From positions 1 to 43,744 of IMG/VR virus record IMGVR_UViG_3300028891_000135: a stretch of 43,744 nucleotides of DNA; one strand, written 5' to 3'. The translations under genes and the position numbers were made by a program. This document shows positions 2,886 to 42,977 of this stretch, in pieces (position 1 is the stretch's first letter; every line of letters begins with the position of its first letter). The notes below the pieces were generated by a model. It was not told where the DNA came from. It was given only the letters and a program-made list of their open reading frames with translations, and did not search any database. Source of the DNA: a virus.

Positions 2886-3239
2886 TTATTCCTGTCCAAG
2901 GCAATTGTAATACAGAATCCGCAAGAACTCATCTTCACAAAATGGCTTCTCCGCGCGGGCTAATTCCACTCCTTTTACGCAACAGGTGACCACATAATCC
3001 AGAAGGTGAGGAAGAAAATACTCATAGCCCTTAGGGAAAATGGGATCTTTCTGGTTCTTCTCCATCATATCAGAAAGCAAATTGTAGCAAGTAGTATAAC
3101 TCCCTCCTTCATAACCCACCTTCATAGCCCGTACTCCCACCTGTGCCATTAGGAGGCAGAAGCCACTTTCCCAAGTATAAGAAACAGTAGGGGAAAGAAA
3201 AACGACAACCAAAAACACAACAAAAATACCTTTCTTCAT
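2886..3239 (-). CDS. Secreted cysteine-rich small protein
   Basis: 117 aa with a clear N-terminal signal peptide (MKKGIFVVFLVVVFLSPTVS; basic n-region, hydrophobic core, Ser/Thr cleavage region). The mature part has six cysteines, including a CC pair, compatible with disulphide bonds outside the cytoplasm. The overall spacing is loosely like periplasmic Rap1a/Tai-type proteins but not enough to assign. It starts behind GAAAGGAGGGTTAGG and its ATG overlaps the stop of a degenerate upstream reading frame. As the last gene of the minus-strand transcript it may be an accessory, possibly superinfection or envelope, factor (inference). Confidence 0.7.
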   Translation of the reverse strand: MKKGIFVVFLVVVFLSPTVSYTWESGFCLLMAQVGVRAMKVGYEGGSYTTCYNLLSDMMEKNQKDPIFPKGYEYFLPHLLDYVVTCCVKGVELARAEKPFCEDEFLRILYYNCLGQE

Positions 3240-21042: not shown

Positions 21043-21209
21043 GCCACTGCCTCATACTGGTCTTCCAAAAGTTCTATCTCCAGCCAGACTTTTGCTATTG
21101 GCTTCCTGTCCAATTCCCTTATCAATACAAACCCTCCTTCTTCCTCATTCTTTTCCAATTCGTATCCCTCAATAGCCAAAAGGTAAAGCACATCCTCTGC
21201 TTTCATCAT
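21039..21209 (-). CDS. Hypothetical 56-aa protein
   Basis: Short gene between the phosphoesterase and the GNAT-like gene: ATGATG at 21209-21204 behind AAGGAGATTTT, overlapping the previous TGA, and ending in TGA overlapping the next ATG. Sequence MMKAEDVLYLLAIEGYELEK, acidic, then a beta segment (GGFVLIRELDRKPIAKVWLE). Both coupling overlaps support a real gene. Family not recognised. Confidence 0.65.
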   Translation of the reverse strand: MMKAEDVLYLLAIEGYELEKNEEEGGFVLIRELDRKPIAKVWLEIELLEDQYEAVA

Positions 21210-22000
21210 AAAATCTCCTTCCTATCTGCTATGTGGGGTAGATCATAGAGGAAAGCATGGTGGTAAAGCTTGCCGTCTTCTGTTACCTCAATTATGCACG
21301 CTCCTATATCAGGTTGCATTCTCCCGTAGAGCTTAAGGAAAACTTTATTGGGAACCCAAGCAATCCAGCAGGGAACCTGAAGCATGTACTGCCCATTTTG
21401 CTCCATGTAAAGGTAAAAGTGCCTGTGGGCTTTGACTATCACCTGAATGGGAGGAAGCTTGCCTACTCCTACTGAGGCATTGATGAAGAGGTTCTCTCTG
21501 TCCATCACCGTAGTCCGGTAAACAGTGGCCTGGGTAGTACCATGGGTAATGAAGAAAGTCAAAGAAGAGGGGGCAAAGCGGCAAATAGAAGCCATTCCTT
21601 TCCACTTGCCTCCCAAAAGCTGAACCACCATTTGGTCTGCACTCACTCCACCGGGCAATACATGATATCCTGATCCTTCTATTCCATAGATGTCTCTATC
21701 CTTACACAGTCCTCTTAGTAAGACTACTGCCATTTCTATCTGATCATTTAAATCCGCTACTACTAAGTTGCGTCCATATCCTTTTGGATTGGGCCCATCT
21801 ATCAGATCTCCCATTAGGAAAACTGTATCTACCCCAAGTTCATCACACTTCTGGCAGAAATCCTCAAAGTACTCAAAAAGCTTCTTCTGCCCACTGTTGA
21901 GACGAACAACGTTCTTCTCCTTGGTCCTGTACCCCTCGGGGGCTACTGCAAAGCGGCTTCCCACATGCAAGTCCCCCACAAAGGCAATCACTCTACTCAT
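21206..22000 (-). CDS. Calcineurin-like metallophosphoesterase
   Basis: 264 aa from ATG 22000 (GCAGGAGGTGGAAAGA); a GTG six codons upstream is possible. Motifs in order: GDLHVGS (about 8-14), FLMGDLIDGP (about 61-70), GIEGSGYHVL (in place of GNHE), ITHGTT and AHRHFY (GHxH variant). These ligands bind two metals and hydrolyse phosphodiesters or monoesters. Phage relatives of this type are often found beside core or tail genes with unknown substrate. Located between the lysis cassette and the core genes. Confidence 0.85.
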   Translation of the reverse strand: MSRVIAFVGDLHVGSRFAVAPEGYRTKEKNVVRLNSGQKKLFEYFEDFCQKCDELGVDTVFLMGDLIDGPNPKGYGRNLVVADLNDQIEMAVVLLRGLCKDRDIYGIEGSGYHVLPGGVSADQMVVQLLGGKWKGMASICRFAPSSLTFFITHGTTQATVYRTTVMDRENLFINASVGVGKLPPIQVIVKAHRHFYLYMEQNGQYMLQVPCWIAWVPNKVFLKLYGRMQPDIGACIIEVTEDGKLYHHAFLYDLPHIADRKEIL

Positions 22001-22109
22001 TCTTTCCACCTCCTGCACTTATTCTCCGCACCAAGCGGACTACCAGACTAAGCCAAATGTCAATGGCACATATTATTACTCCCAAAAGGATAAGGATTAC
22101 TGCCTCCAT
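21993..22109 (-). CDS. 38-aa membrane mini-protein
   Basis: ATG 22109 follows GGAGGTACTGTGATAG and overlaps nothing upstream; its TAG (21995-21993) overlaps the phosphoesterase start. MEAVILILLGVIICAIDIWL is a membrane helix, followed by a basic tail (VRLVRRISAGGGKNE). Too short for most gene finders. Could be an accessory holin or other lysis-linked peptide; unproven. Confidence 0.55.
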   Translation of the reverse strand: MEAVILILLGVIICAIDIWLSLVVRLVRRISAGGGKNE

Positions 22110-22112
22110 CTA

Positions 22113-22532
22113 TCACAGTACCTCCACCACAGGATTCATTCCTTCTTCTAATACCCTATGGCGATATACCTTGCGCCATATCCTCCCACATGAAGTACAG
22201 CGCCAAGAGTTGCCGCTTGATACAGGGATTCCCCCACACTCAGGACATCTGGGCCGATCAAAAAAGTCAGGAGGAGGAGATTTGGGCTTGGGAACCTTTT
22301 TCCATTGTCTTCCACATTTCTTACAGTACCAACAAAGGCCATTAGAGACAGGAACACTTCCACAATGGGGGCAGAGGGGGCGATCGTCTTGAGGTAGTGT
22401 CTTACGGGGACGCCTTACCTTTGTCCACTGGCGCCCGCACTCCCTGCATAGCCACTTTCTTCCACTTGAAATAGGATTGGGAGCTCCACACTCGGGACAT
22501 GGCGGCCTATCTGTCTTCTCCTTCTTCTCCAA
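22113..22532 (-). CDS. Triple zinc-ribbon protein
   Basis: 139 aa from a TTG start at 22532 with an excellent AAGGAGG 8 bp upstream; no in-frame ATG nearby. Three tandem repeats of about 40 aa, each RPxCPxCG.....S....W.C..CGR.W.KV: first at about 9-40, second at about 51-81, third at about 92-122, joined by Pro-rich basic linkers. Each is a four-Cys zinc ribbon like those of transposase/IS1 and transcription factors. Probably binds nucleic acid in an array-like way. Ends MNPVVEVL. Confidence 0.75.
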   Translation of the reverse strand: MEKKEKTDRPPCPECGAPNPISSGRKWLCRECGRQWTKVRRPRKTLPQDDRPLCPHCGSVPVSNGLCWYCKKCGRQWKKVPKPKSPPPDFFDRPRCPECGGIPVSSGNSWRCTSCGRIWRKVYRHRVLEEGMNPVVEVL

Positions 22533-22692
22533 GTAACGTCCTCCTTATCTCTCGCTTAACCTCTATTAAAATTAGCCTTCCCAACCCTTCTATATCCCTC
22601 TCGTGAAATTTGACATAAGTTTCATCCTTCAACCATCCTTTTATCAAAGAGCAGATTTCCTCAAGTAAACCATCCCAGTCCAAAGCACTCAC
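22507..22692 (-). CDS. Hypothetical 61-aa protein
   Basis: Starts at ATG 22692 overlapping the protease stop, and ends in TAG at 22507, 26 bp inside the next gene. Acidic helical N-terminus (DWDGLLEEICSLIKGWLKDE), basic C-terminus (LIEVKREIRRTLLGEEGEDR). Family not recognised. Its last codons contain the ribosome site of the triple zinc-ribbon gene. Confidence 0.6.
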   Translation of the reverse strand: MSALDWDGLLEEICSLIKGWLKDETYVKFHERDIEGLGRLILIEVKREIRRTLLGEEGEDR

Positions 22693-23342
22693 TTTATCAG
22701 GTGGTCAGCAAAACCCCACTCTATAGCCTGCTGAGCACTGATCCATGTTTCCTCTGCACACCGCTTCTTCAGCTCCTCAGGAGAAAGCTTGATGCGAGAG
22801 GCAAGCATCTGGATCATAGCATTCTGAAGTTTCCTCATTATTTGTGCTTCTTTCTCTACTTGCGAAACACTTTGGGTAGACAGGAATTTGAATACTAATA
22901 GCTCATGCACCATGACAAAGGAGCAATCGGCAATCCAGCGGTGGCCGGGACTACCTGCGGCAAGGATAACAGCAGCGGCGGAAGCGGCGATGCCATAGCA
23001 ACGGACTTCTATGATGATGCCTTTGGATTGCAATTCCAACATAAGCTGGGCGAAAGAAAGACCGTCGAAGAAGCTACCCCCAGAGGAATTGAGGTAAATG
23101 ACAATGTGCTTTACGCCGTACCGCCTAAAAAAGTGGGTGGCTTTAACAAAACGAGAGAATTCTCCTACCACGCTTCCTGTAAGGAGATAATAACCTGTTT
23201 CACCAGAACCTATGAAATAAGAATAGTCGGGAGGAGCTATAGGGTAAGGAAGGGGTTCAACTTCGAAGACCTCGGCAAAAGAAGCACTAATCATCAGTAG
23301 GCATAACACCAATACCGCCAATCCTGTTTTTATCCTACTCAT
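22689..23342 (-). CDS. Secreted ClpP-like serine protease in lysis cassette
   Basis: 217 aa. Residues 1-23 are a signal peptide (MSRIKTGLAVLVLCLLMISA then SFAEV). The rest is a crotonase/ClpP fold: GGS oxyanion strand region IVIYLNSSGGSFFDGL (about 80-95), nucleophile CYGIAASAAAVIL (Ser about 121), and histidine FVMVHELLVFKF (His about 146), closing with AQQAIEWGFADHLI as in ClpP (AxEAxxYGLxD). The third ClpP acid is not clearly conserved (RCAEETW instead of DTxRD). ClpP-type phage proteins are usually cytoplasmic prohead proteases near the portal; this one is exported and follows the endolysin, implying an envelope role. Confidence 0.8.
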   Translation of the reverse strand: MSRIKTGLAVLVLCLLMISASFAEVFEVEPLPYPIAPPDYSYFIGSGETGYYLLTGSVVGEFSRFVKATHFFRRYGVKHIVIYLNSSGGSFFDGLSFAQLMLELQSKGIIIEVRCYGIAASAAAVILAAGSPGHRWIADCSFVMVHELLVFKFLSTQSVSQVEKEAQIMRKLQNAMIQMLASRIKLSPEELKKRCAEETWISAQQAIEWGFADHLIK

Positions 23343-23353
23343 AGCTTATCCTC

Positions 23354-23800
23354 CTACATTTCTCTCAATCCCTCTAAAAAGAGGGCTCTTTCTGCCTCTC
23401 TTCTCCTTACCAATCCCTTCAATCTCCTCCCTCCTGCATACACCCACCTCAAGAACTCATCTGCCGCATCCCAAAAATCCCCAGCATTCAACTTGCGCCT
23501 CAAGGTAGAGGCCCTAAAAGCATAGATGCCAACATTAAAAGCAAAGCTGACCAAAGCATCCCGCATCCAAGGGTGGATCAGAACATGGATAAGCGGATAC
23601 AGCCTCCACTCCACCTTGATAAGATCCCACACCAAAAGCCTAAGTGCCTCCTCCTCTGTGATACTTTTCACAAGTCTCTCCTTCTCTTGTGGAGTTACCA
23701 CGTGCCCGTAACCGATGGTGAGGTAGCCTGCGGGGCAGAGGTAGGGCTTGGAGCGGAAGCCCTCGAACTCCTTGACCAGCTCTATACATCGTGGGGTCAT
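23354..23800 (-). CDS. GH24 endolysin (T4/P22-type lysozyme)
   Basis: 148 aa. The catalytic triad pattern E-8-C-5-T of phage lysozymes is exact: KEFEGFRSKPYLCPAGYLTI (Glu13, Cys22, Thr28), followed by GYGHVV and, later, ALVSFAFNVG. Hydrolyses the MurNAc-GlcNAc bond of peptidoglycan. No signal or SAR helix at the N-terminus, so release must depend on a holin. Its ATG overlaps the stop of the upstream holin-like gene (GGATGACC), a typical holin-endolysin coupling. Confidence 0.93.
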   Translation of the reverse strand: MTPRCIELVKEFEGFRSKPYLCPAGYLTIGYGHVVTPQEKERLVKSITEEEALRLLVWDLIKVEWRLYPLIHVLIHPWMRDALVSFAFNVGIYAFRASTLRRKLNAGDFWDAADEFLRWVYAGGRRLKGLVRRREAERALFLEGLREM

Positions 23801-24264
23801 CCGTCTTTCCTTCCGAAGGTTCTTTTTATTGCCCTTCTGCCGAACCAGAAGAGGATAACGGCGGCCACAAACTCCTGATCGGCAGGTGTCCAGACAGCAG
23901 CAAGGCCTCCAGCTTCCTTAGCCAGTGAGAACTTTACCACCAACCAACAGGCCATAATTAGGTAAGTCAGGGTGGGACGAACTGTCTGGTTATAGAGATT
24001 GCCCAGTACCTGCAGAAAATCCACCCAGAATTTCCCAGTAGGCTTAATAGGTTGTGGCTCTGCAAACTTGTAAACTGCTTTGTCAAGCTCAATGTCTGCC
24101 TGTGCCTCAGCCTCTGCTATTCTGATCTCAGCCATTTCCTTCTGGTACTTCAACTGCAACTCCAACATCTCCAGCTCCTGCTTGTGCTGCTGCCGCTCCC
24201 GGAAGATCTTGATGACCTCTGGGACAACAGAGCCTACCAGCCCCAGAATGGCACCTGCTAACAT
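23797..24264 (-). CDS. Holin-like membrane protein (3TM/GTA-holin type)
   Basis: 155 aa. N-terminal hydrophobic helix MLAGAILGLVGSVVPEVIKI, a charged coil (ELEMLELQLKYQKEMAEIRI), then membrane segments TYLIMACWLVVKFSLA and AAVILFWFGRRAIKRT. This order matches the family of three-helix holins used by phages and gene transfer agents. Placement immediately before and overlapping the endolysin supports a holin role. Ribosome site GGAGGCAGGAG. Confidence 0.75.
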   Translation of the reverse strand: MLAGAILGLVGSVVPEVIKIFRERQQHKQELEMLELQLKYQKEMAEIRIAEAEAQADIELDKAVYKFAEPQPIKPTGKFWVDFLQVLGNLYNQTVRPTLTYLIMACWLVVKFSLAKEAGGLAAVWTPADQEFVAAVILFWFGRRAIKRTFGRKDG

Positions 24265-24274
24265 CTCCTGCCTC

Positions 24275-24508
24275 CTACTTTATAAGATCAATCTGGTTCA
24301 CAAGCACAGCTAACCTCTTCAGTGCACTTTTAATCTCCTTCTTTGTTCCCTCTTCATACTGATCCAGCTTCTTCTCCATCTTCCTTCCCCACTTCACGAA
24401 ATACTTCTTGGGGTTAACGAACATCAGGGGCCAGTTGTGAGCAAGTGCACCTGTGCCCACTACACCCACAACCAATCCAAGCACAAAAGCGGCAATCAAC
24501 TCCATCAT
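24275..24508 (-). CDS. Membrane-anchored coiled-coil protein of lysis cassette
   Basis: 77 aa, ATGATG at 24508 behind AGAAAGGAGGTAATAGCC. One N-terminal membrane helix (LIAAFVLGLVVGVVGTGALA), then a long basic coil (KMEKKLDQYEEGTKKEIKSA). The arrangement resembles i-spanin or YtxH-like anchored coils and it sits between XhlA-like and holin-like genes. A role in lysis is inferred from location. Confidence 0.6.
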   Translation of the reverse strand: MMELIAAFVLGLVVGVVGTGALAHNWPLMFVNPKKYFVKWGRKMEKKLDQYEEGTKKEIKSALKRLAVLVNQIDLIK

Positions 24509-24575: not shown

Positions 24576-24794
24576 CTATCGCCTTAGCCCTAAGTTAATT
24601 AGAACACTTGTAACAGTAGCAACAAGAAATCCCCACACCGAAGCCTTTCCTTCCACTTTGGACACCTTACTTTTCACCTCCGACACATCATCCACCACCT
24701 TATCCAACTTTCTTTCAATGCTCCCCAACTGTTGAATCACCATCTCCTGTTTGCCTTTGATCACTCCAATCTCTTCACGAAGTCCGTCATCCAT
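24576..24794 (-). CDS. XhlA-like haemolysin/lysis accessory protein
   Basis: 72 aa from ATG 24794 (GGAGGTGTTACCG). An N-terminal helical coil with heptad pattern (EEIGVIKGKQEMVIQQLGSI, KLDKVVDDVSEVKSKVSKVE) and a C-terminal membrane helix (GFLVATVTSVLINLGL). This is the XhlA layout, membrane-associated partners of holins in phage lysis cassettes. Confidence 0.7.
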   Translation of the reverse strand: MDDGLREEIGVIKGKQEMVIQQLGSIERKLDKVVDDVSEVKSKVSKVEGKASVWGFLVATVTSVLINLGLRR

Positions 24795-24856
24795 CGGTAA
24801 CACCTCCAGAAGAAGTACATTACTTCAATTAACCTCCACTAACATTCTTCTCCATT

Positions 24857-26617: not shown

Positions 26618-27313
26618 TTAATCCCCCAATAATAAAGCATAAAACAAAGCTGTGTTATTAACATAGGTTTTGTTTGCAAGACTATCAGTAAATTCTAATC
26701 CATCTTCAGTTGCCTTCACCACAACGGCCTTTCCCGCCTGCCCTGTGTAATCCGAAGGGGCGTCATCCAGTTCTACAAAGTCAACTCCATGAGGATTGCC
26801 ACTGGTGGTGTTTTTGTGGTCTTCCCAGCCCTTAGCCAAGGAATTGCTCAAGACCTTGTTCTTAGTAGCATCGGTAGAAGTAGTATCCACAGGTTGGATA
26901 CCATGAGGAGAAGAAGCCGGTACATCAGCATCTATATGGCTCCTTACCTCTTGGACTGTGGTGTTATTGTTTCCATCTGTCAACTGGTTGCCAACGTGAA
27001 CATCCTTGAACCATCCCTTCTGCCACTTATAGCTACTAGAACCAAGATCATCTGCCTCATTTTCCTTTGGCTCCACATTGCCACTGGTGGCGCTATGAGG
27101 GACGAGAACATCGTTACGCAAATCCCAAATACCTTGAGGATTAACAGAAGGATCTTTCTCAGAAGCAGTATCTCGGTACATTACAAAGGCTCCCACCCTC
27201 TCTATGGCCTCCACCAGGATCCTAATGGTTCGGTTCAGGTGATCCACCATTTCCTCTGTGGAGGCCACAGGTGGGATCTCAAGCCATTCGCCTATAATCC
27301 TCTGCCTTGCCAC
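26618..27313 (-). CDS. Tail fibre-associated/base protein
   Basis: 231 aa from GTG 27313 (GGAGGAGGCGTTGAATA). N-terminal helix (TEEMVDHLNRTIRILVEAIE) probably attaches to the tail, then repeats with NPHG and HKNTTSGNPHGVD sequences typical of phage fibres, and the module LDDAPSDYTGQAGK ... TEDGLEF shared with the next gene. Acts as the attachment or shaft part of the fibre (inference). Start codon shares a base with the upstream stop. Confidence 0.7.
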   Translation of the reverse strand: MARQRIIGEWLEIPPVASTEEMVDHLNRTIRILVEAIERVGAFVMYRDTASEKDPSVNPQGIWDLRNDVLVPHSATSGNVEPKENEADDLGSSSYKWQKGWFKDVHVGNQLTDGNNNTTVQEVRSHIDADVPASSPHGIQPVDTTSTDATKNKVLSNSLAKGWEDHKNTTSGNPHGVDFVELDDAPSDYTGQAGKAVVVKATEDGLEFTDSLANKTYVNNTALFYALLLGD

Positions 27314-30183
27314 TATTCAACGCCTCCTCCACCTACTGGTTCAGTTGCTCCCCCTATCGGTTCCCATTCTATCTCTAAGCCATAGAATTTGGCAATATTG
27401 CTGGAAATGGAAACCTCGTAGTTGAGATAATGGCCTATCAGGTTGGTGGTGGGATAGAAAGTCCCAAGTGCACCGTAATCAGTCGTAATGGAGACGTTGT
27501 TCTTGCTGTACTCCTTCCCGGTGCCTCCACCGTCCACCTTGAGCGTGATGCTGACTTCCGGGGTGCCCTGAACCTTATGCACTTTGAACTTGAAGCCCCT
27601 CAAGCGGAATTTCCTACCCGGGCCAGCGGGGAAGATCCTGTTGCTTTGGATGAGATTGGAGCTGTCCGGGGAAGGGGAGGTATCATCTGGGTAGACCGAC
27701 TGGAGATCAAGCGGATACTCATAGGGCCCTACATCATACTTAACTGCAATAGCATTCAATCCTTTCTTTGCCCGAGAAGTACTTAGGTAAAAGAAACTGT
27801 CATCAATATGAAGAGTCCGAAAGCGAGGATCTGTACAGAAAGCACTATAGCCGTGTTCATCTATACTCCACTGGCCATCAGAATGTACAACCAATGTATT
27901 GAGACTCCTAATGTTTAAATTACTCTCTCCCACCGGAGAAGCATCACAAGCATAAAAACCATTCTCGTGTTCATATGTATCAAGCAGTGTCAAATTGCTA
28001 CCATCAAATTGGAAATAATACAAAGTGTTACCAGCTGGATACTCTTCACAAGCTACCAATTGCTCTCTTGTCGGCCCCCAACCTATACTTCGGATTCTGG
28101 CTGTTGTAGAGTATGTCGTTACAAGGGAAATTGACGAACCATCCCATTTAAAAAGATAAAGGATGGAAGCACCTCTTGTTCCTACTGCTATATACTTACC
28201 ACATGGAGAAAAACGGGCCTGACACACTTCACCTGACAAAGTATATGTATCAATTAAAGAAAAAGAGTCGGTACTACAGTCATAAACCGCAACTTTGCCA
28301 TCTCCGTTTGAAACCACAAGGTAATCTTCAACTGGAGAAAAATGGCAATGGATGTTACTCGAGCCAAGTGAAACAGTATCAAGCAAAGCAAGGTTGGAGC
28401 CATCAAATCCTAAAAGCCAAATAGTTCCTACTGCTCCAGAAACAACAGCAATTTTAGAACCATCTTTATTAAATGAACAAGACTGGCCTGTATTGGTAAG
28501 TGTATAAGTATCCACAAGCGTTAAATTTGATCCATCCCAAGAGTACACAGAAAAATAAGGCGACTCTCCATGTGCAACAGCTATATAACTACCGTTTGGC
28601 GACCAAGCTACACCGTAGCCTCCTACGTCACCCGGCAGAGTAGCACTTCCCGCTAAACTAAGAGTAGATCCGTCAAATTCATAAACAAAAAGAGCAGCTT
28701 CCTCACCTTTCACAGCGGCAATATAATTACCATTGGGAGAAAATCTAACTTCATCAAGGGACCCGTTGGAAACCTTAGTAAGAAATGAGAGGTTGGCTCC
28801 ATCACTTTTTAATATGTGAAATTCAGGGGCATTCTCCACACCTACAGCTACATACTGAACTGTTGCAACCTCCCTTTCCACTTCTCCAAAAGTCACAAAC
28901 CCACGGTTACCAGCGGTAGAAACAGTCCAAAAATTGTAGCCATAGTAATTATCAAGTGGCTTTTCTGCTCTTAAGATACCCTCAATAGGTTCCCCAATGC
29001 TCTTAGCCAGCCCCCCCACAAACAGTATTACGGATTTAGCAGGAGTCACCATCATTATCCCCGTGGGTATCACCGCCAGTGCAGCAGGGCCTATAACCCC
29101 TATGTCTGCCACCTTCCTGATCTCAAACTGATCGTTGATGGGGCCTACTACCTGATATGCCTCATCTTTGGTAAACACATAGGTGGTTCCCCTGAAGGTA
29201 GCAAGGGCTAAAAGCTCAAGGCCTGTGTCTATGTAGTTATCAGTAGGCCAGTAATCAGGCTGCCAAGAGGAAGACCACCAGAGCCGGCCATCATCGTCTA
29301 CGGCAAAAAGGCGGCCCAGTTGCTCGTTCCATTCAAGGTAGACAATGTCGGAAGGTGGGGGATCATGGTCAGTTGGGATATTCTGGCCCCATTCGCTTTC
29401 GGCTGTGGATACGGTATAACTCGTAGTTTGCCCCGCTCCTGGATTATCAATAGTAGCAATTAGCATATATTCTGTTACCGATCCTCCCAAACCATAAATT
29501 CTAATCTTATCCACTCCCGGTTGCCCCGTGCCGGCTATGTTGCTCAAGTCCACATTCTGGTTGGCCACGGTAACGGCATCCGAAGCAGGAGATCCATTGC
29601 TCTCAATGTCCAGAGAGGAATCGTAATAGGTGTAGCGGAAGTAGTAAGTGCCGTCCAGAGAACCTGCATCTCCTGCAGCGGCAGAGGGAGCTTGGGTGGG
29701 TGCTTCTATACCGAGGTTAAGGGTTGTAATGGAAGAACCCAGCTTGACCTTCTTGGACTTCAGGCTTCCATCTGAACTCCAAGCTCCTATGAAGGCATAG
29801 GGAACTGTGGAAAGGGAATAAGGATTGAAAACAGGGATGTTATATACGGCAAAATCCCCTGCGGTAGTGGGTGTAACATCCGTATAACTGTCACCGTCTA
29901 TATCGTAGATCCTGACATAGTAATGGCCATGCTCGTCAGTGCCCCCGCTTTTCTCCAGCACACCTATGATGACGTAATTCTTGTCTCCGGCACGGGCGGA
30001 AAAAGCCTTAATAGGAAGGCCAAAGTCTGTCCAAGCTGAGGTAGGGATGAGGCTCTGGCCCGGGAGAACCATAAGTGCACCATCGTTGGTAAAGCTTACC
30101 CCACGGAGCTTGGAGGCAAATTCCACTCCCGTATCTCCAACCCCCATGCCCTTTGCTGGTGCCGATATCCACGTCCTCGGCAT
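27313..30183 (-). CDS. Tail nozzle (tubular B-like) protein with inserted 7-repeat beta-propeller
   Basis: 956 aa. Residues 1-430 and 770-956 look like a podovirus nozzle/tubular B protein (e.g. LFAVDDDGRLWWSSSWQPDY; ELLALATFRGTTYVFTKDEA). Between them, about 436-768, lie seven WD40-like repeats of 40-48 aa, each beginning (F/W)DGSxLxLxDT and containing FSPNGxYIAV-type strands (e.g. FSPNGNYIAAVKG, WSPNGSYIAVAHG, FSPCGKYIAVGTR). The chain returns to the host fold at about 765 (LVVHSDGQWSIDEHG). Nozzle proteins themselves contain a propeller, so this one is nested. A receptor-contacting or plug role is inferred. Confidence 0.75.
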   Translation of the reverse strand: MPRTWISAPAKGMGVGDTGVEFASKLRGVSFTNDGALMVLPGQSLIPTSAWTDFGLPIKAFSARAGDKNYVIIGVLEKSGGTDEHGHYYVRIYDIDGDSYTDVTPTTAGDFAVYNIPVFNPYSLSTVPYAFIGAWSSDGSLKSKKVKLGSSITTLNLGIEAPTQAPSAAAGDAGSLDGTYYFRYTYYDSSLDIESNGSPASDAVTVANQNVDLSNIAGTGQPGVDKIRIYGLGGSVTEYMLIATIDNPGAGQTTSYTVSTAESEWGQNIPTDHDPPPSDIVYLEWNEQLGRLFAVDDDGRLWWSSSWQPDYWPTDNYIDTGLELLALATFRGTTYVFTKDEAYQVVGPINDQFEIRKVADIGVIGPAALAVIPTGIMMVTPAKSVILFVGGLAKSIGEPIEGILRAEKPLDNYYGYNFWTVSTAGNRGFVTFGEVEREVATVQYVAVGVENAPEFHILKSDGANLSFLTKVSNGSLDEVRFSPNGNYIAAVKGEEAALFVYEFDGSTLSLAGSATLPGDVGGYGVAWSPNGSYIAVAHGESPYFSVYSWDGSNLTLVDTYTLTNTGQSCSFNKDGSKIAVVSGAVGTIWLLGFDGSNLALLDTVSLGSSNIHCHFSPVEDYLVVSNGDGKVAVYDCSTDSFSLIDTYTLSGEVCQARFSPCGKYIAVGTRGASILYLFKWDGSSISLVTTYSTTARIRSIGWGPTREQLVACEEYPAGNTLYYFQFDGSNLTLLDTYEHENGFYACDASPVGESNLNIRSLNTLVVHSDGQWSIDEHGYSAFCTDPRFRTLHIDDSFFYLSTSRAKKGLNAIAVKYDVGPYEYPLDLQSVYPDDTSPSPDSSNLIQSNRIFPAGPGRKFRLRGFKFKVHKVQGTPEVSITLKVDGGGTGKEYSKNNVSITTDYGALGTFYPTTNLIGHYLNYEVSISSNIAKFYGLEIEWEPIGGATEPVGGGGVE

Positions 30184-34562: not shown

Positions 34563-35498
34563 TTAGGTCACGTTCTTAATGATCCCGGACCGCCATGGAG
34601 CAGTCACGATCAGGTTGCACATCACAAGGAGCTGGCGCACATAAGCATCCTGATTGGTAGGTTCTTTGGGCGGTGTCCAGACGAAGTTCCTGTTGGTGTT
34701 GATCACAAACTGGATGTATTTGGTGTTGAGCACGAAGATGGTACCGCTGGGGCAGTAGTTGTCAGGAACGATCACCGCCCGGTTGAAGGTGATGCCCTCG
34801 AAACCTACCTGCGCCAGATCGCTGTCCTTGGGCAGGAACCTCTGCTGAGGCTGTACCCTTGCCCAGAGCTTGTTGTACAGCGCAGGGGGCATCACGATCA
34901 AATCAGGATGCTCGTCGCCGTCCATGCAGGTGCCGTACATGTCCTGGATCATGTCCAGAGTGAGACTGCCGCCCGTGCTGTCCACATTGCCCTTCCACCA
35001 AGTATTGGTGCTCCGGCTGATGCCACCGTAAGTGGAATAGGTGTTGCCGTCATCGAGACCATTGAGTAGCCCGTCCACGGCCTTGCCACCGTCACCAGTA
35101 CCATCAGAGTAGATGCCCTCGCAGAGTTTCTTACGCATCGTGAGACTGGCCACCTCCATCTTAGGCCTCAGGATACCAATGATCTCCTGATCGCTCTCGG
35201 CTCTGGCGATGTCGTCACCAGGAATGGTCACGTTCACATAGGCAGACTTCCAGTCCCACTCAGCGTAAGTATGGGTCTGCTTGTAGCTGGTGTCAAAAGT
35301 GTCAAGACCGCTGTAGTAGCCGCTGGGCAACTCATCGTAGACCACGGGCTGGGCAATCTTACGACCTCCCCTCAGCTTGACGTTGTTCTTGGTCATTAGA
35401 CGGACAAGCAGAGGGGTGGCCTTAAAGAACTGGTTAACGATGCCGGGCAGAAACGCTTTCCGCACAGCAACATCAAGGTCATCATATGTCAAAGCCAT
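34563..35498 (-). CDS. Major capsid protein
   Basis: 311 aa. N-terminal helix MALTYDDLDVAVRKAFLPGI, then KATPLLVRLMTKNNVKLRGG, the 'YDELPSGYYSGLDTFDTSY' segment, SAYVNVTIPGDDIARAESDQ and a C-terminal domain with HPDLIVMPPALYNKLW and VPDNYCPSGTIFVLNTKYIQ. These are typical of HK97-fold coat proteins of podoviruses and siphoviruses lacking an N-terminal delta domain; a separate scaffold gene lies directly upstream, as expected. Shell protein of the head. Confidence 0.85.
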   Translation of the reverse strand: MALTYDDLDVAVRKAFLPGIVNQFFKATPLLVRLMTKNNVKLRGGRKIAQPVVYDELPSGYYSGLDTFDTSYKQTHTYAEWDWKSAYVNVTIPGDDIARAESDQEIIGILRPKMEVASLTMRKKLCEGIYSDGTGDGGKAVDGLLNGLDDGNTYSTYGGISRSTNTWWKGNVDSTGGSLTLDMIQDMYGTCMDGDEHPDLIVMPPALYNKLWARVQPQQRFLPKDSDLAQVGFEGITFNRAVIVPDNYCPSGTIFVLNTKYIQFVINTNRNFVWTPPKEPTNQDAYVRQLLVMCNLIVTAPWRSGIIKNVT

Positions 35499-35514: not shown

Positions 35515-36321
35515 TTAGCCTGTTTTTTGTTTCTCCTGCCTCAGTATCTCCAAAGCCCTCGCCTCTGCCTCTTCCATGGATGTTGGAACCTCTTCACCTT
35601 CGGGAAGTTTGAATACCGAAGGAGGAGGTCCCTCGGCAGTAGGCGATGGGCTCTGAGCCAATAGCTTCTGCCTCTCGGCTTCAAGTTGCTCCTGCAGCTT
35701 GGACTGGACTTCCTTCTCCTTCAGTTCGTTGAGATAAGCGAACTGGTGCAGCCGCTGCCAGTCCTCGAAAGTAAGATCAGGTTTGCCATACTCCTGAGCC
35801 ATCTTCAGCAACCTTTCCTCGTCAAAAGGAATGTCCGGATACTGCTGCCGGTGCCACTCCCGAAGCCGATCAAGGTCGTATTTATATCTAAATGCCTGTT
35901 CCATCCGGTGAAGACGCTCATCGTACTGCTTGGCGAGGTCTTCCCACCTGCGGGTTATCTCTTCGAGCTTCTTCAACATGACATTCTCTCCTTCTTCCTC
36001 CTCCTCTTCCTCCGTATTGAGGAGAGAGGAGAAATCAAGCTTACTCCCCTGCGGTTGCTGCCCCTGAGGTCCCCAGGCGGGCAGTCCGTCGGGAGTGAAG
36101 TAACCAAACTGAACCATCTGATCGTACCACTTCTGCCACTCCTCGGCCTGCTTAGCCTTGGCCTCGAGATCTTTCAACTGCTCTTCAAACTTCTTCCTCT
36201 CTTCGGCCAAAGCCTGCGTCTTGCGGGTGTAATCCGCCTGACGCATATAGCCTTGGAGCAGCTCGTCCAAGGTGACCTCTAACTCCTCGTCACCAACCTT
36301 GACTTTGTATTTCTCTGCCAT
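35515..36321 (-). CDS. Capsid scaffolding protein
   Basis: 268 aa from ATG 36321 (AGCAGGAGGTGTGAAA). Almost entirely charged helix: GYMRQADYTRKTQALAEERK, EEQLKDLEAKAKQAEEWQKW, an acidic run (NTEEEEEEEGE), ERLHRMEQAFRYKYDLDRLR, and a C-terminal EEAEARALEILRQEKQKTG helix. N-terminal YKVKVGDEELEVTLDELLQG is common in phage scaffolds. Placement directly upstream of the capsid gene is decisive. Directs head assembly and leaves before packaging. Confidence 0.85.
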   Translation of the reverse strand: MAEKYKVKVGDEELEVTLDELLQGYMRQADYTRKTQALAEERKKFEEQLKDLEAKAKQAEEWQKWYDQMVQFGYFTPDGLPAWGPQGQQPQGSKLDFSSLLNTEEEEEEEGENVMLKKLEEITRRWEDLAKQYDERLHRMEQAFRYKYDLDRLREWHRQQYPDIPFDEERLLKMAQEYGKPDLTFEDWQRLHQFAYLNELKEKEVQSKLQEQLEAERQKLLAQSPSPTAEGPPPSVFKLPEGEEVPTSMEEAEARALEILRQEKQKTG

Positions 36322-36323
36322 TT

Positions 36324-36416
36324 TCACACCTCCTGCTTGTTCTCTCCGTTCTTCGGGGGTGGCCTGTGCCTTGTCCCCGAACCGGCTCGAATGCAGGAAC
36401 CGGACAGAACGGGCAT
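36324..36416 (-). CDS. Candidate 30-aa mini-protein
   Basis: ATG 36416 to TGA 36326-36324, MPVLSGSCIRAGSGTRHRPP then PKNGENKQEV; an in-frame GTG further upstream is also possible. The stop overlaps the scaffold ribosome site, but the ATG has no convincing ribosome site of its own. Weak candidate. Confidence 0.3.
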   Translation of the reverse strand: MPVLSGSCIRAGSGTRHRPPPKNGENKQEV

Positions 36417-37603: not shown

Positions 37604-37734
37604 TTTGCTCTTTTAGCAGCCTTCCTCTTCTTGCCAATAGGAATTCCTATGGGGCCTCTGCCCCTACCGATACCAAGGCCTCTACCCATGCCCTTAGACC
37701 TGATCTTGCCACCTGGACATCTCTTCCTTCTCAT
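37600..37734 (-). CDS. Gly/Arg/Lys-rich mini-protein, 44 aa
   Basis: ATG 37734 overlaps the portal TGA (ATGA) with GAGAGGTGTTGAAGCC upstream. MRRKRCPGGKIRSKGMGRGL then GIGRGRGPIGIPIGKKRKAA: RGG-like composition, probably nucleic-acid binding. Ends overlapping the next start. Confidence 0.6.
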   Translation of the reverse strand: MRRKRCPGGKIRSKGMGRGLGIGRGRGPIGIPIGKKRKAAKRAK

Positions 37735-39446
37735 GGCTTCAACACCTCTCCTGACATTCCTTTTGCCCTCATCTCAGCTTCCATTCGCCTTGAGGGCTCT
37801 GGGACTTTTACCACCTTGGTGGGCCTGCCCTGTTGCTGCTGCATCATCTGGGCTTTCCTCTCCAAAATCTCTTTCCTGTGGGGCCACTCGGCTATCTCCA
37901 GCAATGCCTCTTCATCTATTACACCCATGCGGTAGAAGGTAATGGCCATCATGACCTTCTGGATCTTGTTCATGGCGAGAGAGGAGCCTTCGACCACCTT
38001 GAACTGGAGATCCCGGAAGGCGGAATGAAGTTTCTGGCGGTAGTCGCCTTCGTAGTACTTGAGGATGGGGTCCATGATTTGCCTTCTCACCCACTCGTAT
38101 TCCCTGATGTTTCCATCTGGCCCGAGGATCTTGATAACCCTGTCCGTGGTGTAGAACTGAAAGATCCTTGATATCAGCTTCTGGCCTATGCGGGCAAGGA
38201 ATTGTTCAAAGGAACGGGCACGGAGGCGGATGATAGCCTGAGCGGCGATCTGGAGCGACTCAATGGCCACCCCTGAGGTCAGTGCTCCTCTCTCTCCATG
38301 CATTACATCCGTCATTCCGCTTAACACCTGCATCTGAGTTTCAAGGTACTTGACTGCATTCTGGATGTAGGCGGGAAGAGGTGGAGGAGGCTCCCGGCGC
38401 AAGGTCTTACCCGGGCGCACTCTCACGATAGCTCCTGGTTTGTTGGTCAGGCGAGTCCATGCAGTAGGGCTTAGAGCATCTTCCTCGCCAATCCAGACGG
38501 CATTGCAGGTGAGAATGGCATGCTCCACTATGATAGCCATCAGCTTATTGTACATCTCTTGGAGGCTATGGAGATACTCAACCTCGGAAATTCCCCAAGC
38601 ACTATTGGGATTGAAGCTCCAGTCAAACATGTCAATTGGGAAGCGCTCGTCTATGTAGGGGTTGGGCTCGTCCTTGAGAATGAGGTGACCAACACGGACA
38701 ATGTGCCTGCCTCCTGGATACTTGCGCACTGATTGGCCATCTTCAAGCTCCACCCGGCTCCTGTCCTTGATCCAAAACTCCTGCACAAGGCAACGGGGGA
38801 GAATGGCCCTTTGCTCCTTCTCTGTGCCAAAGAGGAGTTTGCGGAGGAAGTGCTTGAAGCCTTTCTCTTCCTCTTCTGCCCCATAAGTAGGCTTTATCTT
38901 GGAAGCCAAGTGGGGATACTGCTCGTCAAGGACGCTCTTGGGAACAACATACTCGTGGATAATGTACTCAGCTTCATCCAGCTGGTTGGCCCGGAGACAG
39001 AAAGGATCAACAAGGTAAACCCGGGGATCGCCTACCACGATGTCAATATCGCCCCTGCCGTCATCTAACTGGGGGTTCCAAACACAGCGGGCAAAGGCAG
39101 CTCCGAAGATGGCAGCTAAGATGAGGAGTTCCTGCTGCTTCTGCTGCCAGTTGCGCTCTTCCCAGAGGGCGGCGATGATGTCCTCAAGCACCTCGGCGAC
39201 AGGCTGGAGATGGTCGTTCCTCGCTACCACACGGATCACAGGGCGGCTGTCGGTGAGGTAAGCTACTTCCCGCTGGATCAGCTCTGCCAAGTGGTTGATA
39301 ACCGCTGAAACCCGCCAGTCCGGGCGCTTGGAGGGCCAGAATTGCCCTCTGTAATGGTTGAGCCAGCGGTCATAGTTCTTGGCCACTTCCTCTTTTGCGA
39401 ACTTAGCTTCCTGGTAAATCTTATCCAAATACTGGTTGAGATCCAA
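37731..39446 (-). CDS. Portal protein
   Basis: 571 aa from a TTG at 39446 (AGGAGGTGTCTTAA 4 bp upstream of the end of the site). Helical N-terminus (YLDKIYQEAKFAKEEVAKNY), NYDRWLNHYRGQFWPSKRPD, IVVGDPRVYLVDPFCLRANQ, a DRWL and IVRVRPGKTLRREPPPPLP segment, IQNAVKYLETQMQVLSGMTD, then the conserved helix AIESLQIAAQAIIRLRARSF. Length and motif series are those of podovirus-type portals, the dodecameric ring at the packaging vertex. Located directly downstream of the large terminase genes. Confidence 0.88.
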   Translation of the reverse strand: MDLNQYLDKIYQEAKFAKEEVAKNYDRWLNHYRGQFWPSKRPDWRVSAVINHLAELIQREVAYLTDSRPVIRVVARNDHLQPVAEVLEDIIAALWEERNWQQKQQELLILAAIFGAAFARCVWNPQLDDGRGDIDIVVGDPRVYLVDPFCLRANQLDEAEYIIHEYVVPKSVLDEQYPHLASKIKPTYGAEEEEKGFKHFLRKLLFGTEKEQRAILPRCLVQEFWIKDRSRVELEDGQSVRKYPGGRHIVRVGHLILKDEPNPYIDERFPIDMFDWSFNPNSAWGISEVEYLHSLQEMYNKLMAIIVEHAILTCNAVWIGEEDALSPTAWTRLTNKPGAIVRVRPGKTLRREPPPPLPAYIQNAVKYLETQMQVLSGMTDVMHGERGALTSGVAIESLQIAAQAIIRLRARSFEQFLARIGQKLISRIFQFYTTDRVIKILGPDGNIREYEWVRRQIMDPILKYYEGDYRQKLHSAFRDLQFKVVEGSSLAMNKIQKVMMAITFYRMGVIDEEALLEIAEWPHRKEILERKAQMMQQQQGRPTKVVKVPEPSRRMEAEMRAKGMSGEVLKP

Positions 39447-40216: not shown

Positions 40217-41929
40217 TCACAAAGCTAACCAGTGCTCTTCCTGTTCCTTTTCCTCCCACCAACTATCATAATCCGGCGGAGGAGAAAGGTCAAGGATGTC
40301 CCGCTTCTGGTCTATTATTCTCTCACCTCCTGTGTCCTGTTTGTCCCAAAAGATGGTGCCGTCCTGATAGGCAGTGTAGAGAGCAATCATTGCCGCCATA
40401 CAGAGGTCGTCATGGGTACCTGGCGCCGCTTCTGCCAGATCTCCCGAGTGCACAAAAGTCATCAACTGCCCCACAAGCCGGGAGGAATTAAACTTCCAGA
40501 CTCCGTGGTCAATTACGTGTTCCATGTAGCTCAGGAGATAGCGCTTGAAAGTGGGAGTCGTGAGCCATCCGAGCTTGTCCGTCCGGCGGTTGGTGAAGCG
40601 GTCTATGTACTGGTGGAAGTAGAAGTTGTAATAGAACCGCTTAGCCTCGTTCTGAGTGGCAAGCCCAGGGCCGTTGATCTCAATGGCGACCACAGCTTCG
40701 TTGTACCACTTGGCAATGGCAACTATGGTGCGGGCGAATGAGATAGGGTCAACGGTGTTATCCATCCACTCAGCCGCCTGCTCCATAGTGGTTTCGTCAA
40801 AGACTTCTATTGCCGAGTAGTCCTGCCCTTTGCCCTCTGCTACATCTACTCCCAAGCGGTACCTGTGCCCTTTCTGAGGCTCATGCCATACCCAGAGCCG
40901 GCCCCGGTCATGCTCTCTGAGGCGGTAGACGAGATCGTAGGGTCCCCGAAGAGCTGCATCCACCTCCAGTTGCTTCACAGGATCACGGCAGTTGACAAGT
41001 GCTTCCTTGAGGCGGGCTTTGTCGAAGTAGCAGTTGCCGGCGACGATGAAGGCCTCTTCGTCTGTGGCGGGGAATTCCTGGGCGAAGCTCTCCTCGTCTC
41101 CCCGGTAGACCTGCTCGATCATGTACCTGCGCCAGTAGATTTGTTCATCATCAAGGTGAAATTGCCTGACCAAGCGCCTTTCTTCTTCGGTCAGGATCAG
41201 CTTTCCCCGCCTCAGCTCTTCTTCTGGTGGCTTCTTGCGGTACTCCGGATGGATGAACCAGGGGAAGAATACGGGGACGAAAACGCTCTGGCCTGCTTTT
41301 GCCTTCTGCCACTCCTCGTGAAACTCGGTGCCGGCCCCCTTTGCGGTGGTCTCCACTATCACCATCGTGTCGGAGGTGGGAGGAATAGCAGGCAGGAGAG
41401 TGGTGAACACAAGGCCGAGGTAAGGGAATGAGGAGGCCTCGGACACGTGAACGTTATGGAGCGTCATCCCCTGGCCCGTGAACTGGTCAAGGGCTGTGGC
41501 AATGTAGATGCCCGACTTCAGGCCATGGCCATCCCGGGTGTCAAAAACCAGCTCCTTCTTGTTGCTATACTTGCGAGTCGGCTTGAGCACATCAGGTAGG
41601 TGATCGTAGAAGGTCTTGCACATCTCGAAGATATACTCTGCCCGATCCTTCTTGTCGGCTAAGATCAGGCTATTGGTGTTCCGCTGGGTGGCTGTGGCGT
41701 GGAAGATCCGGGCGGTGGTAAAGGTCGAGCATCCCTCCTGTCGGGCTTTCAGAAGCAGAATCCACACCGGCTGTCCCCTGCCCCTTATGGCCTCGATGGT
41801 CTGGTGCAAGGCCCTCTGAGCCGGGTACCAGTTGTCAGGATGGAAAGAAATAAGCCGCCTCTCGGTCTTGTGCCTGACCTTCAGGAACTGAGCGTAAACC
41901 TCGAAGCGCCTGAAATCGGGAATCCTCAT
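40217..41929 (-). CDS. terL: Terminase large subunit
   Basis: 570 aa. ATPase motor: LLLKARQEGCSTF (Walker A variant, about 58-70), Walker B-like HNVHVSEASSFPYLG with acidic 163-164, and coupling motif VIVETTAKG (about 190-198). Nuclease domain: RLGVDVAEGKGQDYSAIEV with the first catalytic Asp, VVAIEINGPG, and HDDLCMAAMIAL near the C-terminus. Pumps DNA into the prohead through the portal and cuts it. The ATG overlaps the TGA of a possible small upstream frame and follows a branched fold at 41957-42024. Ends TGA. Confidence 0.95.
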   Translation of the reverse strand: MRIPDFRRFEVYAQFLKVRHKTERRLISFHPDNWYPAQRALHQTIEAIRGRGQPVWILLLKARQEGCSTFTTARIFHATATQRNTNSLILADKKDRAEYIFEMCKTFYDHLPDVLKPTRKYSNKKELVFDTRDGHGLKSGIYIATALDQFTGQGMTLHNVHVSEASSFPYLGLVFTTLLPAIPPTSDTMVIVETTAKGAGTEFHEEWQKAKAGQSVFVPVFFPWFIHPEYRKKPPEEELRRGKLILTEEERRLVRQFHLDDEQIYWRRYMIEQVYRGDEESFAQEFPATDEEAFIVAGNCYFDKARLKEALVNCRDPVKQLEVDAALRGPYDLVYRLREHDRGRLWVWHEPQKGHRYRLGVDVAEGKGQDYSAIEVFDETTMEQAAEWMDNTVDPISFARTIVAIAKWYNEAVVAIEINGPGLATQNEAKRFYYNFYFHQYIDRFTNRRTDKLGWLTTPTFKRYLLSYMEHVIDHGVWKFNSSRLVGQLMTFVHSGDLAEAAPGTHDDLCMAAMIALYTAYQDGTIFWDKQDTGGERIIDQKRDILDLSPPPDYDSWWEEKEQEEHWLAL

Positions 41930-42320: not shown

Positions 42321-42977
42321 TTAATTCACCTCCATCTGCAAACTTAGCTGCTGTGTATTCACCAGTTTTCTGAGAGGTTTTTCATACTTCAACCACCTCC
42401 CTGATCGCTCTTCTAAAGCAACGACTTTATTAAAAAGGTCTGGATGAAGCTCAGCCAGTTTTGTAAAGTCTCTGAGTGACTGAAAAGGACAGATAAAACA
42501 ACCCGATCTGATTGGTACCGGTAGCCCATGGCGCTTAATGACCGCCTTGCAGTCCTGCCTTGTCATACCAATCTCTACTAGCGGATATTCCAGTTGGGCA
42601 TATCTGCCACGGGGACGGACCCGGTGTACCTCATCAATACTGATGCCCACCAAATGCACTTTTACCCCCGGGAAAGCTTTTGCAATAGGTTCAAGTTTCC
42701 ACATCCCTGTGCAAACCCTTGCTTTTATAAAAGGAATCTGGCGCCTTTCCCAGTACCACTGATACATATTACCCCTTTCACTCTGTACCCTACAAACCTG
42801 AGTTCCCCACGTCTTAAGAAGATAGTCGTTAAACAAAGCTAAAAACTCATAAGTCTCAGGCCATTCACAACCTGTATCAGCAAATATAATTGGGAATCGC
42901 TTTCCCTGCTCATAAAGCAAAAGAACCATTGCTGTTGAATTAACCCCGGCTCCAAAACTAATTATTTTTTCTACCAT
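42321..42977 (-). CDS. PAPS reductase-family enzyme (adenine nucleotide alpha hydrolase)
   Basis: 218 aa. PP-loop IISFGAGVNSTAMVLLLY (about 5-22), FADTGCEWPETYEFL (about 32-46), CTGMWKLEPI, GISIDEVHRVRP and a C-terminal GCFICPFQ cysteine pair that may hold an iron-sulphur cluster. Members activate a substrate with ATP or use PAPS; relatives in phages and in DndC/PhosphoTSS systems introduce sulphur into DNA or metabolise sulphate. Located between the HNH and terminase genes. DNA thiolation is a hypothesis only, as no DndA/D/E partners occur in the window. Confidence 0.85.
   Translation of the reverse strand: MVEKIISFGAGVNSTAMVLLLYEQGKRFPIIFADTGCEWPETYEFLALFNDYLLKTWGTQVCRVQSERGNMYQWYWERRQIPFIKARVCTGMWKLEPIAKAFPGVKVHLVGISIDEVHRVRPRGRYAQLEYPLVEIGMTRQDCKAVIKRHGLPVPIRSGCFICPFQSLRDFTKLAELHPDLFNKVVALEERSGRWLKYEKPLRKLVNTQQLSLQMEVN

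Follow-up and report, generated by a model that had tools for sequence, protein, structure and literature searches.

The window, by which we mean the whole stretch of DNA analysed here, comprises the 43,744 bases of the record IMGVR_UViG_3300028891_000135, and its identified genes all lie on the minus strand. L036 (G002), which is 99-100% identical to the window, spans both window ends (1 and 43744). Because L036 is continuous through these ends, the window genome is near complete and either circularly permuted or circular; by our own count, ~23 bases are absent at its end-to-end join. The head genes form a cluster; tail genes follow downstream, and after them comes the lysis region. The features are as follows.

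40217-41929, minus strand: terminase (family match)
37731-39446, minus strand: portal (family match)
35515-36327, minus strand: scaffold (family match)
34563-35498, minus strand: major head protein, MCP (family match)
24576-24803, minus strand: XhlA-like protein of 75 aa, coiled coil and C-terminal TM (weak Pfam XhlA match, 0.045)
24275-24508, minus strand: protein of 77 aa with a TM at its N-terminus and a basic, helical tail (the N-terminus is hydrophobic; SD match of 8)
23797-24264, minus strand: holin candidate, 155 aa (GTA_holin_3TM, 0.0027, weak and below cut-off; phrog_6637, function unknown, 3.7e-27)
23354-23800, minus strand: endolysin, single-domain GH24 lysozyme, 148 aa (Pfam Phage_lysozyme, 1.5e-39; phrog_7, 1.9e-53)
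23350-23355, minus strand: AGGAGG ribosome-binding site that overlaps the stop codon of the endolysin and precedes the ATG by 7 bases
22689-23342, minus strand: predicted exported ClpP-like (S14) serine protease, 217 aa (Pfam; AlphaFold2 and Foldseek; invariant S121, H146 and E198)
23274-23342, minus strand: predicted signal peptide, residues 1-23 (hydrophobicity, -3/-1 rule, no lipobox; kind conserved in a second genome, L002)
22507-22692, minus strand: ORF of 61 aa, overlapping the ClpP-like stop (ORF list)
22113-22532, minus strand: multi zinc-ribbon protein (Pfam zinc ribbons, best 3e-6, below cut-off)
21206-22018, minus strand: calcineurin-like phosphoesterase (Pfam Metallophos, 7.6e-4, just below cut-off)

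Outside the lysis region, a phosphoadenosine phosphosulfate reductase-like gene (42321-42977, minus strand; phrog_424, 1.3e-40) lies near the terminase, and a 956-aa tail or internal virion protein (27313-30183, minus strand) matches phrog_511 (7e-19) and also, under the model cut-off, a TolB beta-propeller model (2e-10). A second small protein with a clear signal peptide (MKKGIFVVFLVVVFLSPTVSYTW..., 117 aa; 2886-3239, minus strand) is preceded by a strong SD sequence, and a PADLOC search gave no match for it.

Read along the minus strand, the lysis region consists of a tail-fibre-like gene, the coiled-coil-TM and TM-basic proteins, the holin candidate, the GH24 endolysin and the ClpP-like gene, followed by the 61-aa ORF and the zinc-ribbon, phosphoesterase and GNAT-like proteins. 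The ClpP-like gene had been predicted to stand directly after the endolysin, and the gap behind the endolysin stop is indeed only 11 bases; the holin and endolysin genes overlap by 4 bases. No N-terminal TM or SAR segment was seen in the endolysin. The TM-basic protein is a candidate for a second holin or an atypical i-spanin-like protein. It and the coiled-coil-TM protein are small membrane proteins of opposite architecture beside the holin, possibly a holin/antiholin pair or an atypical spanin-like pair without a lipoprotein. When the arrangement was sought in other phages, it was found in one viral genome, L002 (IMGVR_UViG_3300033141_004895, 46,659 bases), the only other genome in which a ClpP-like protein of this exported type was found. 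L002 shares the order holin-endolysin-ClpP-zinc ribbon-phosphoesterase as well as the signal and the catalytic residues. The phosphoesterase is 75% identical to its L002 counterpart and conserved as the next gene, whereas no counterpart of the 61-aa ORF was seen in the L002 ORF list. The zinc-ribbon protein, which consists almost wholly of zinc ribbons, lies between the lysis genes and the phosphoesterase in both genomes (8653-8970 in L002).

The ClpP-like ORF encodes 217 aa plus a stop codon. The sequence before its start ATG is tgtaggaggataagctATG, in which the well-spaced AGGAGG constitutes a perfect ribosome-binding site. The N-terminus reads MSRIKTG-LAVLVLCLLMISA-SFA-EVFE and can be divided into an n-region (SRIKTG) with two positive charges, an h-region (LAVLVLCLLMISA; top 15-residue Kyte-Doolittle mean 2.74) and a c-region (SFA before E), with an S-x-A site at -3/-1 after residue 23 and predicted cleavage near A23-E24. 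A motif check of the N-terminus found neither a lipobox nor a Tat motif. The call is based on composition, hydrophobicity and the -3/-1 rules, together with conservation in L002, and by these rules the segment has all the features of a Sec/signal peptidase I substrate (n-, h- and c-regions, small residues at -3 and -1, no lipobox). The hydrophobic signal peptide of the original prediction thus stands as one of the cleavable type, present in both genomes. The mature protein would contain three cysteines, so that complete disulfide pairing within one chain is impossible. The same N-terminal sequence is also compatible with a single-pass anchor, and the structural model described below predicts residues 2-21 as one helix. 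Left uncleaved, it might hold a ClpP ring to the outer side of the membrane, where the enzyme, in the manner of SppA, would degrade signal peptides or small membrane proteins, possibly the holin or antiholin, and tune the timing of lysis. We regard this as improbable, because the short h-region and good signal-peptidase site are unlike a typical anchor, and because the Pfam scan gave CLP_protease, with Peptidase_S49 absent among the matches up to E 1.

Residues ~53-217 are placed in the ClpP family by Pfam, PHROGs, NCBIfam and PDB searches. The match to Pfam CLP_protease (PF00574, S14) has an E-value of 6.2e-25 (88.6 bits against a curated cut-off of 20.2), that to the PHROG head maturation protease profile 1.1e-28, and ClpP entries in the PDB were matched by sequence at 1e-12; the ClpP identity is, as judged from sequence, far beyond chance. 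The motifs that had led to the original prediction were found where it placed them, i.e. IVIYLNSSGGS at residues 80-90, GIAASAAAV at 117-125 and VMVHE at 143-147, and the proposed nucleophile and histidine proved to be invariant. The codons of the putative catalytic residues, each an invariant alignment column, are as follows.

22980-22982, minus strand: nucleophile Ser121
22905-22907, minus strand: His146
22749-22751, minus strand: acid Glu198, at the position of the ClpP catalytic Asp

Together with the oxyanion residues Gly88-Gly89, these three residues are invariant in an alignment of 56 sequences, which took in P0002 and 54 viral relatives. The acid is Glu, in contrast to the Asp of cellular ClpP, and Glu is common to the phage head-maturation proteases in the alignment. 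AlphaFold2 gave a poor model from two sequences (pLDDT 48.6), and the run on the 56-sequence alignment was used instead (pLDDT 82.7, >90 across most of the core); in this model, the region between signal and core (~25-56) is poorly predicted. The best PDB matches of the model in Foldseek are ClpP structures (E 8e-14), with TM-scores of about 0.61-0.67 by query and 0.70-0.81 by target. The handle helix is present, and the loop GSPGHR resembles GAKGKR of ClpP. The predicted fold is therefore that of ClpP with the Ser-His-acid residues in place, compatible with the active Ser-His pair proposed at the outset. Taken together, the sequence evidence speaks well for a ClpP-type protein that is exported and catalytically competent, which we consider quite probable; we infer actual export and signal cleavage, proteolytic activity and late timing.

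Among viral ClpP-like proteins, the nearest 80 include none with a comparable N-terminus. L122 is an apparent exception, which is most simply explained by a start placed upstream of the usual MKRKFWNWV. The further viral matches of a motif scan (about 115 other viral proteins overall) likewise include none with such an N-terminus. No further exported relative emerged from viral scans with the protein, its alignment or the AASAA-LAAG motif, from a genome-contig scan, from phage and plasmid records, or from 398 and 299 whole genomes of two phyla; the best matches in Pseudomonadota were cellular ClpP or head-protease-like proteins without a signal of this kind, and the five best in the second phylum were ordinary ClpP. 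A ClpP neighbour was found at none of 79 other GH24-endolysin loci, and literature searches for an exported ClpP in phage lysis cassettes turned up nothing relevant. The predicted export signal, which L002 shares, thus sets the window protein apart from the other phage ClpP-type enzymes examined. A tree built from 89 sequences groups the two exported proteins on a single branch (100/99), which lies outside a set of 65 head proteases (99/96). Their stem is long and the tool warns of long-branch joining, so their exact placement is unsure.

The window and L002 are 94% identical in the holin, 89% in the endolysin and 75% in the ClpP-like protein; within this protein, identity is 54% over the signal and 81% over the core. 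The signal is kept in kind yet drifts faster than the core, and thereby behaves as signal peptides do. For the core, dN is 0.12 and dS about 2.3, the latter near saturation; dN/dS is far below 1, indicating strong purifying selection. The long branch separating the pair from all relatives could be read as the mark of a non-proteolytic or decaying ClpP relative without a role. With an intact triad and such a dN/dS in the core, this reading has very little probability.

The closest profile families of the ClpP-like protein are phage head-maturation proteases (NF045542, phrog_94; e.g. those of mEp043, Paracoccus phage Pthi1 and Bacteriophage Lily), with which it shares the ClpP-type core, the Ser-His-Glu residues and the ETW motif. 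The scores against NF045542 (84.6 bits in the window, 95.0 in L002) are both below the cut-off of 120. Head-maturation proteases have no such signal, and most of the annotated records examined place their genes between those of portal and capsid, whereas the window protein carries a signal and its gene lies in the lysis operon (22689-23342), not beside the MCP (34563-35498) or portal (37731-39446). Because it is also the only ClpP-domain match of the genome, one might suppose a displaced head-maturation protease whose hydrophobic N-terminus serves to hold it at the inner face of the membrane while proheads assemble. However, four phages (G007, G013, G014 and G017) encode homologues of the window capsid protein, portal and terminase, and PF00574 gave no match in any of them, although fragments may be among these records; in G007, no lysis module separates the tail-fibre gene from the GNAT gene, and the two adjoin. 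The absence of a ClpP match in these four, together with the distance of ~11 kb from the capsid gene, makes a role in head maturation unlikely. A scaffold gene is present in the head cluster, and no sampled head protease has such an N-terminus. The head-maturation role was rejected on gene position, the lack of PF00574 in the head-gene relatives and the N-terminus; the tethered variant we likewise consider quite improbable. In Xanthomonas phage NR08, a Clp protease is listed among the lysis genes (PMC10061587). Xanthomonas phage CP1 has a 239-aa ORF directly behind its portal, of the same length as the CP1 ClpP-like protein, and by analogy the NR08 Clp may be a head protease that was grouped with the lysis genes.

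The original prediction also noted that no spanin is obvious here. In agreement with this, a pattern scan of the coding strand in all frames, from which an atypical spanin could escape, found no lipobox in any ORF of >=35 aa, and hence neither an o-spanin nor a u-spanin. A similar scan recovered a lipobox ORF in 24 of 69 related endolysin neighbourhoods. In a survey of 677 phage genomes, 13% were without a spanin, Thermus phages included, and an alternative route was asked about (PMC6139136). The endolysin is of the short GH24 kind and the listed phage relatives infect two-membraned hosts; a host envelope with two membranes is suggested by this single-domain enzyme. Codon and amino-acid usage (IVYWREL fraction 0.42; AGG and AAG preferred) suggests a thermophilic host, and the host bacteria are probably heat-loving. 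The terminase relatives found in genomes reach only 31-36% identity and come from several phyla, and no host was assigned from them. Those in L043-L051 (34-36% identity) lie in genome bins titled Parcubacteria, Nomurabacteria, Magasanikbacteria and other candidate-phyla bacteria, and are possibly proviruses or misbinned phages.

The export tag suggests that the ClpP-like enzyme probably works in the cell envelope. The proposal that it acts outside the membrane is borne out in part: the exported-type signal distinguishes it from the cytoplasmic head proteases, while the action itself is a prediction from that signal. The reading we favour, tentatively and at somewhat less than even probability, is a Sec-exported, ATP-independent ClpP-type peptidase that is made with the lysis proteins and acts on envelope proteins. 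The protein would be made from the same operon as the holin and endolysin, secreted via the host Sec system and trimmed by signal peptidase. It would then fold outside the cytoplasmic membrane, probably into ClpP-like rings, given its handle helix, and would work without an ATPase partner, as is thought for the ClpP-related head-maturation proteases. As infection ends, it would cleave proteins of the envelope, or unfolded peptides, and so loosen the envelope; the cells would open when the wall has been cut by the endolysin. We hypothesise a role in lysis or outer-membrane disruption, and the protein may plausibly act as a spanin substitute. The stronger form, in which a ClpP-type protease, secreted in advance via Sec, performs the third stage of lysis for a phage lacking spanins and opens the outer layer proteolytically and not by membrane fusion, seems to us doubtful.

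Several points weaken the lysis reading: a one-membrane host would need no spanins, the protein was found in two genomes only, and unrelated cargo genes also sit next to lysis genes. A ClpP separated from its ATPase is normally limited to peptides and unfolded proteins as substrates, which also counts against it, as does the odd number of cysteines in the mature protein. The enzyme could instead be an exported cargo protease that cleaves a surface receptor or envelope protein, with lysis independent of it, either blocking superinfection or stopping released virions from sticking to debris. Such a role fits the export signal and the catalytic conservation, the module also holds non-lysis genes (zinc ribbon, phosphoesterase), and relatives that share the head genes lack this gene. 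Yet the gene follows 11 bases behind the endolysin, its order is the same in both genomes, and a defence-family search gave no match; we consider a cargo role possible, though unlikely.

Set against known systems, the enzyme that we favour as an envelope-acting peptidase shares with cellular ClpP (TIGR00493, E. coli ClpP) the fold, the Ser and His positions and the handle helix, but differs in its Glu for the catalytic Asp and in its exported-type signal; its score against TIGR00493 (64.1 bits) lies far below the equivalog cut-off of 308.6. No AAA+ partner was seen in the phage. Like head-maturation proteases, which are also phage-encoded and presumed to be ATP-independent, it may dispense with one. 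As a ClpP-superfamily fold that would work outside the cytoplasm, the enzyme has parallels in the exported or membrane ClpP/crotonase-like peptidases, among them SppA (S49) and the COG3904 periplasmic proteins. The gene could fill the same cassette place as the spanins (lambda Rz/Rz1, T1 gp11), behind the holin and endolysin, but its product has no lipobox and no coiled-coil span and is an enzyme, not a membrane-fusion device. A partial parallel as an added exported hydrolase is gp40 of Xanthomonas phage PBR31, an exported SGNH esterase with a signal peptide, encoded in the lysis block and proposed as a lysis aid (PMC10975493); fold and chemistry differ, and PBR31 also has a spanin, whereas none is recognisable in the window phage.

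For phages that lack spanins and infect two-membraned bacteria, an exported protease encoded in the lysis operon gives a concrete candidate for the way in which the outer layer is opened. If true, a ClpP-type enzyme would have moved out of the cytoplasm, without an ATPase partner, in a phage lineage.
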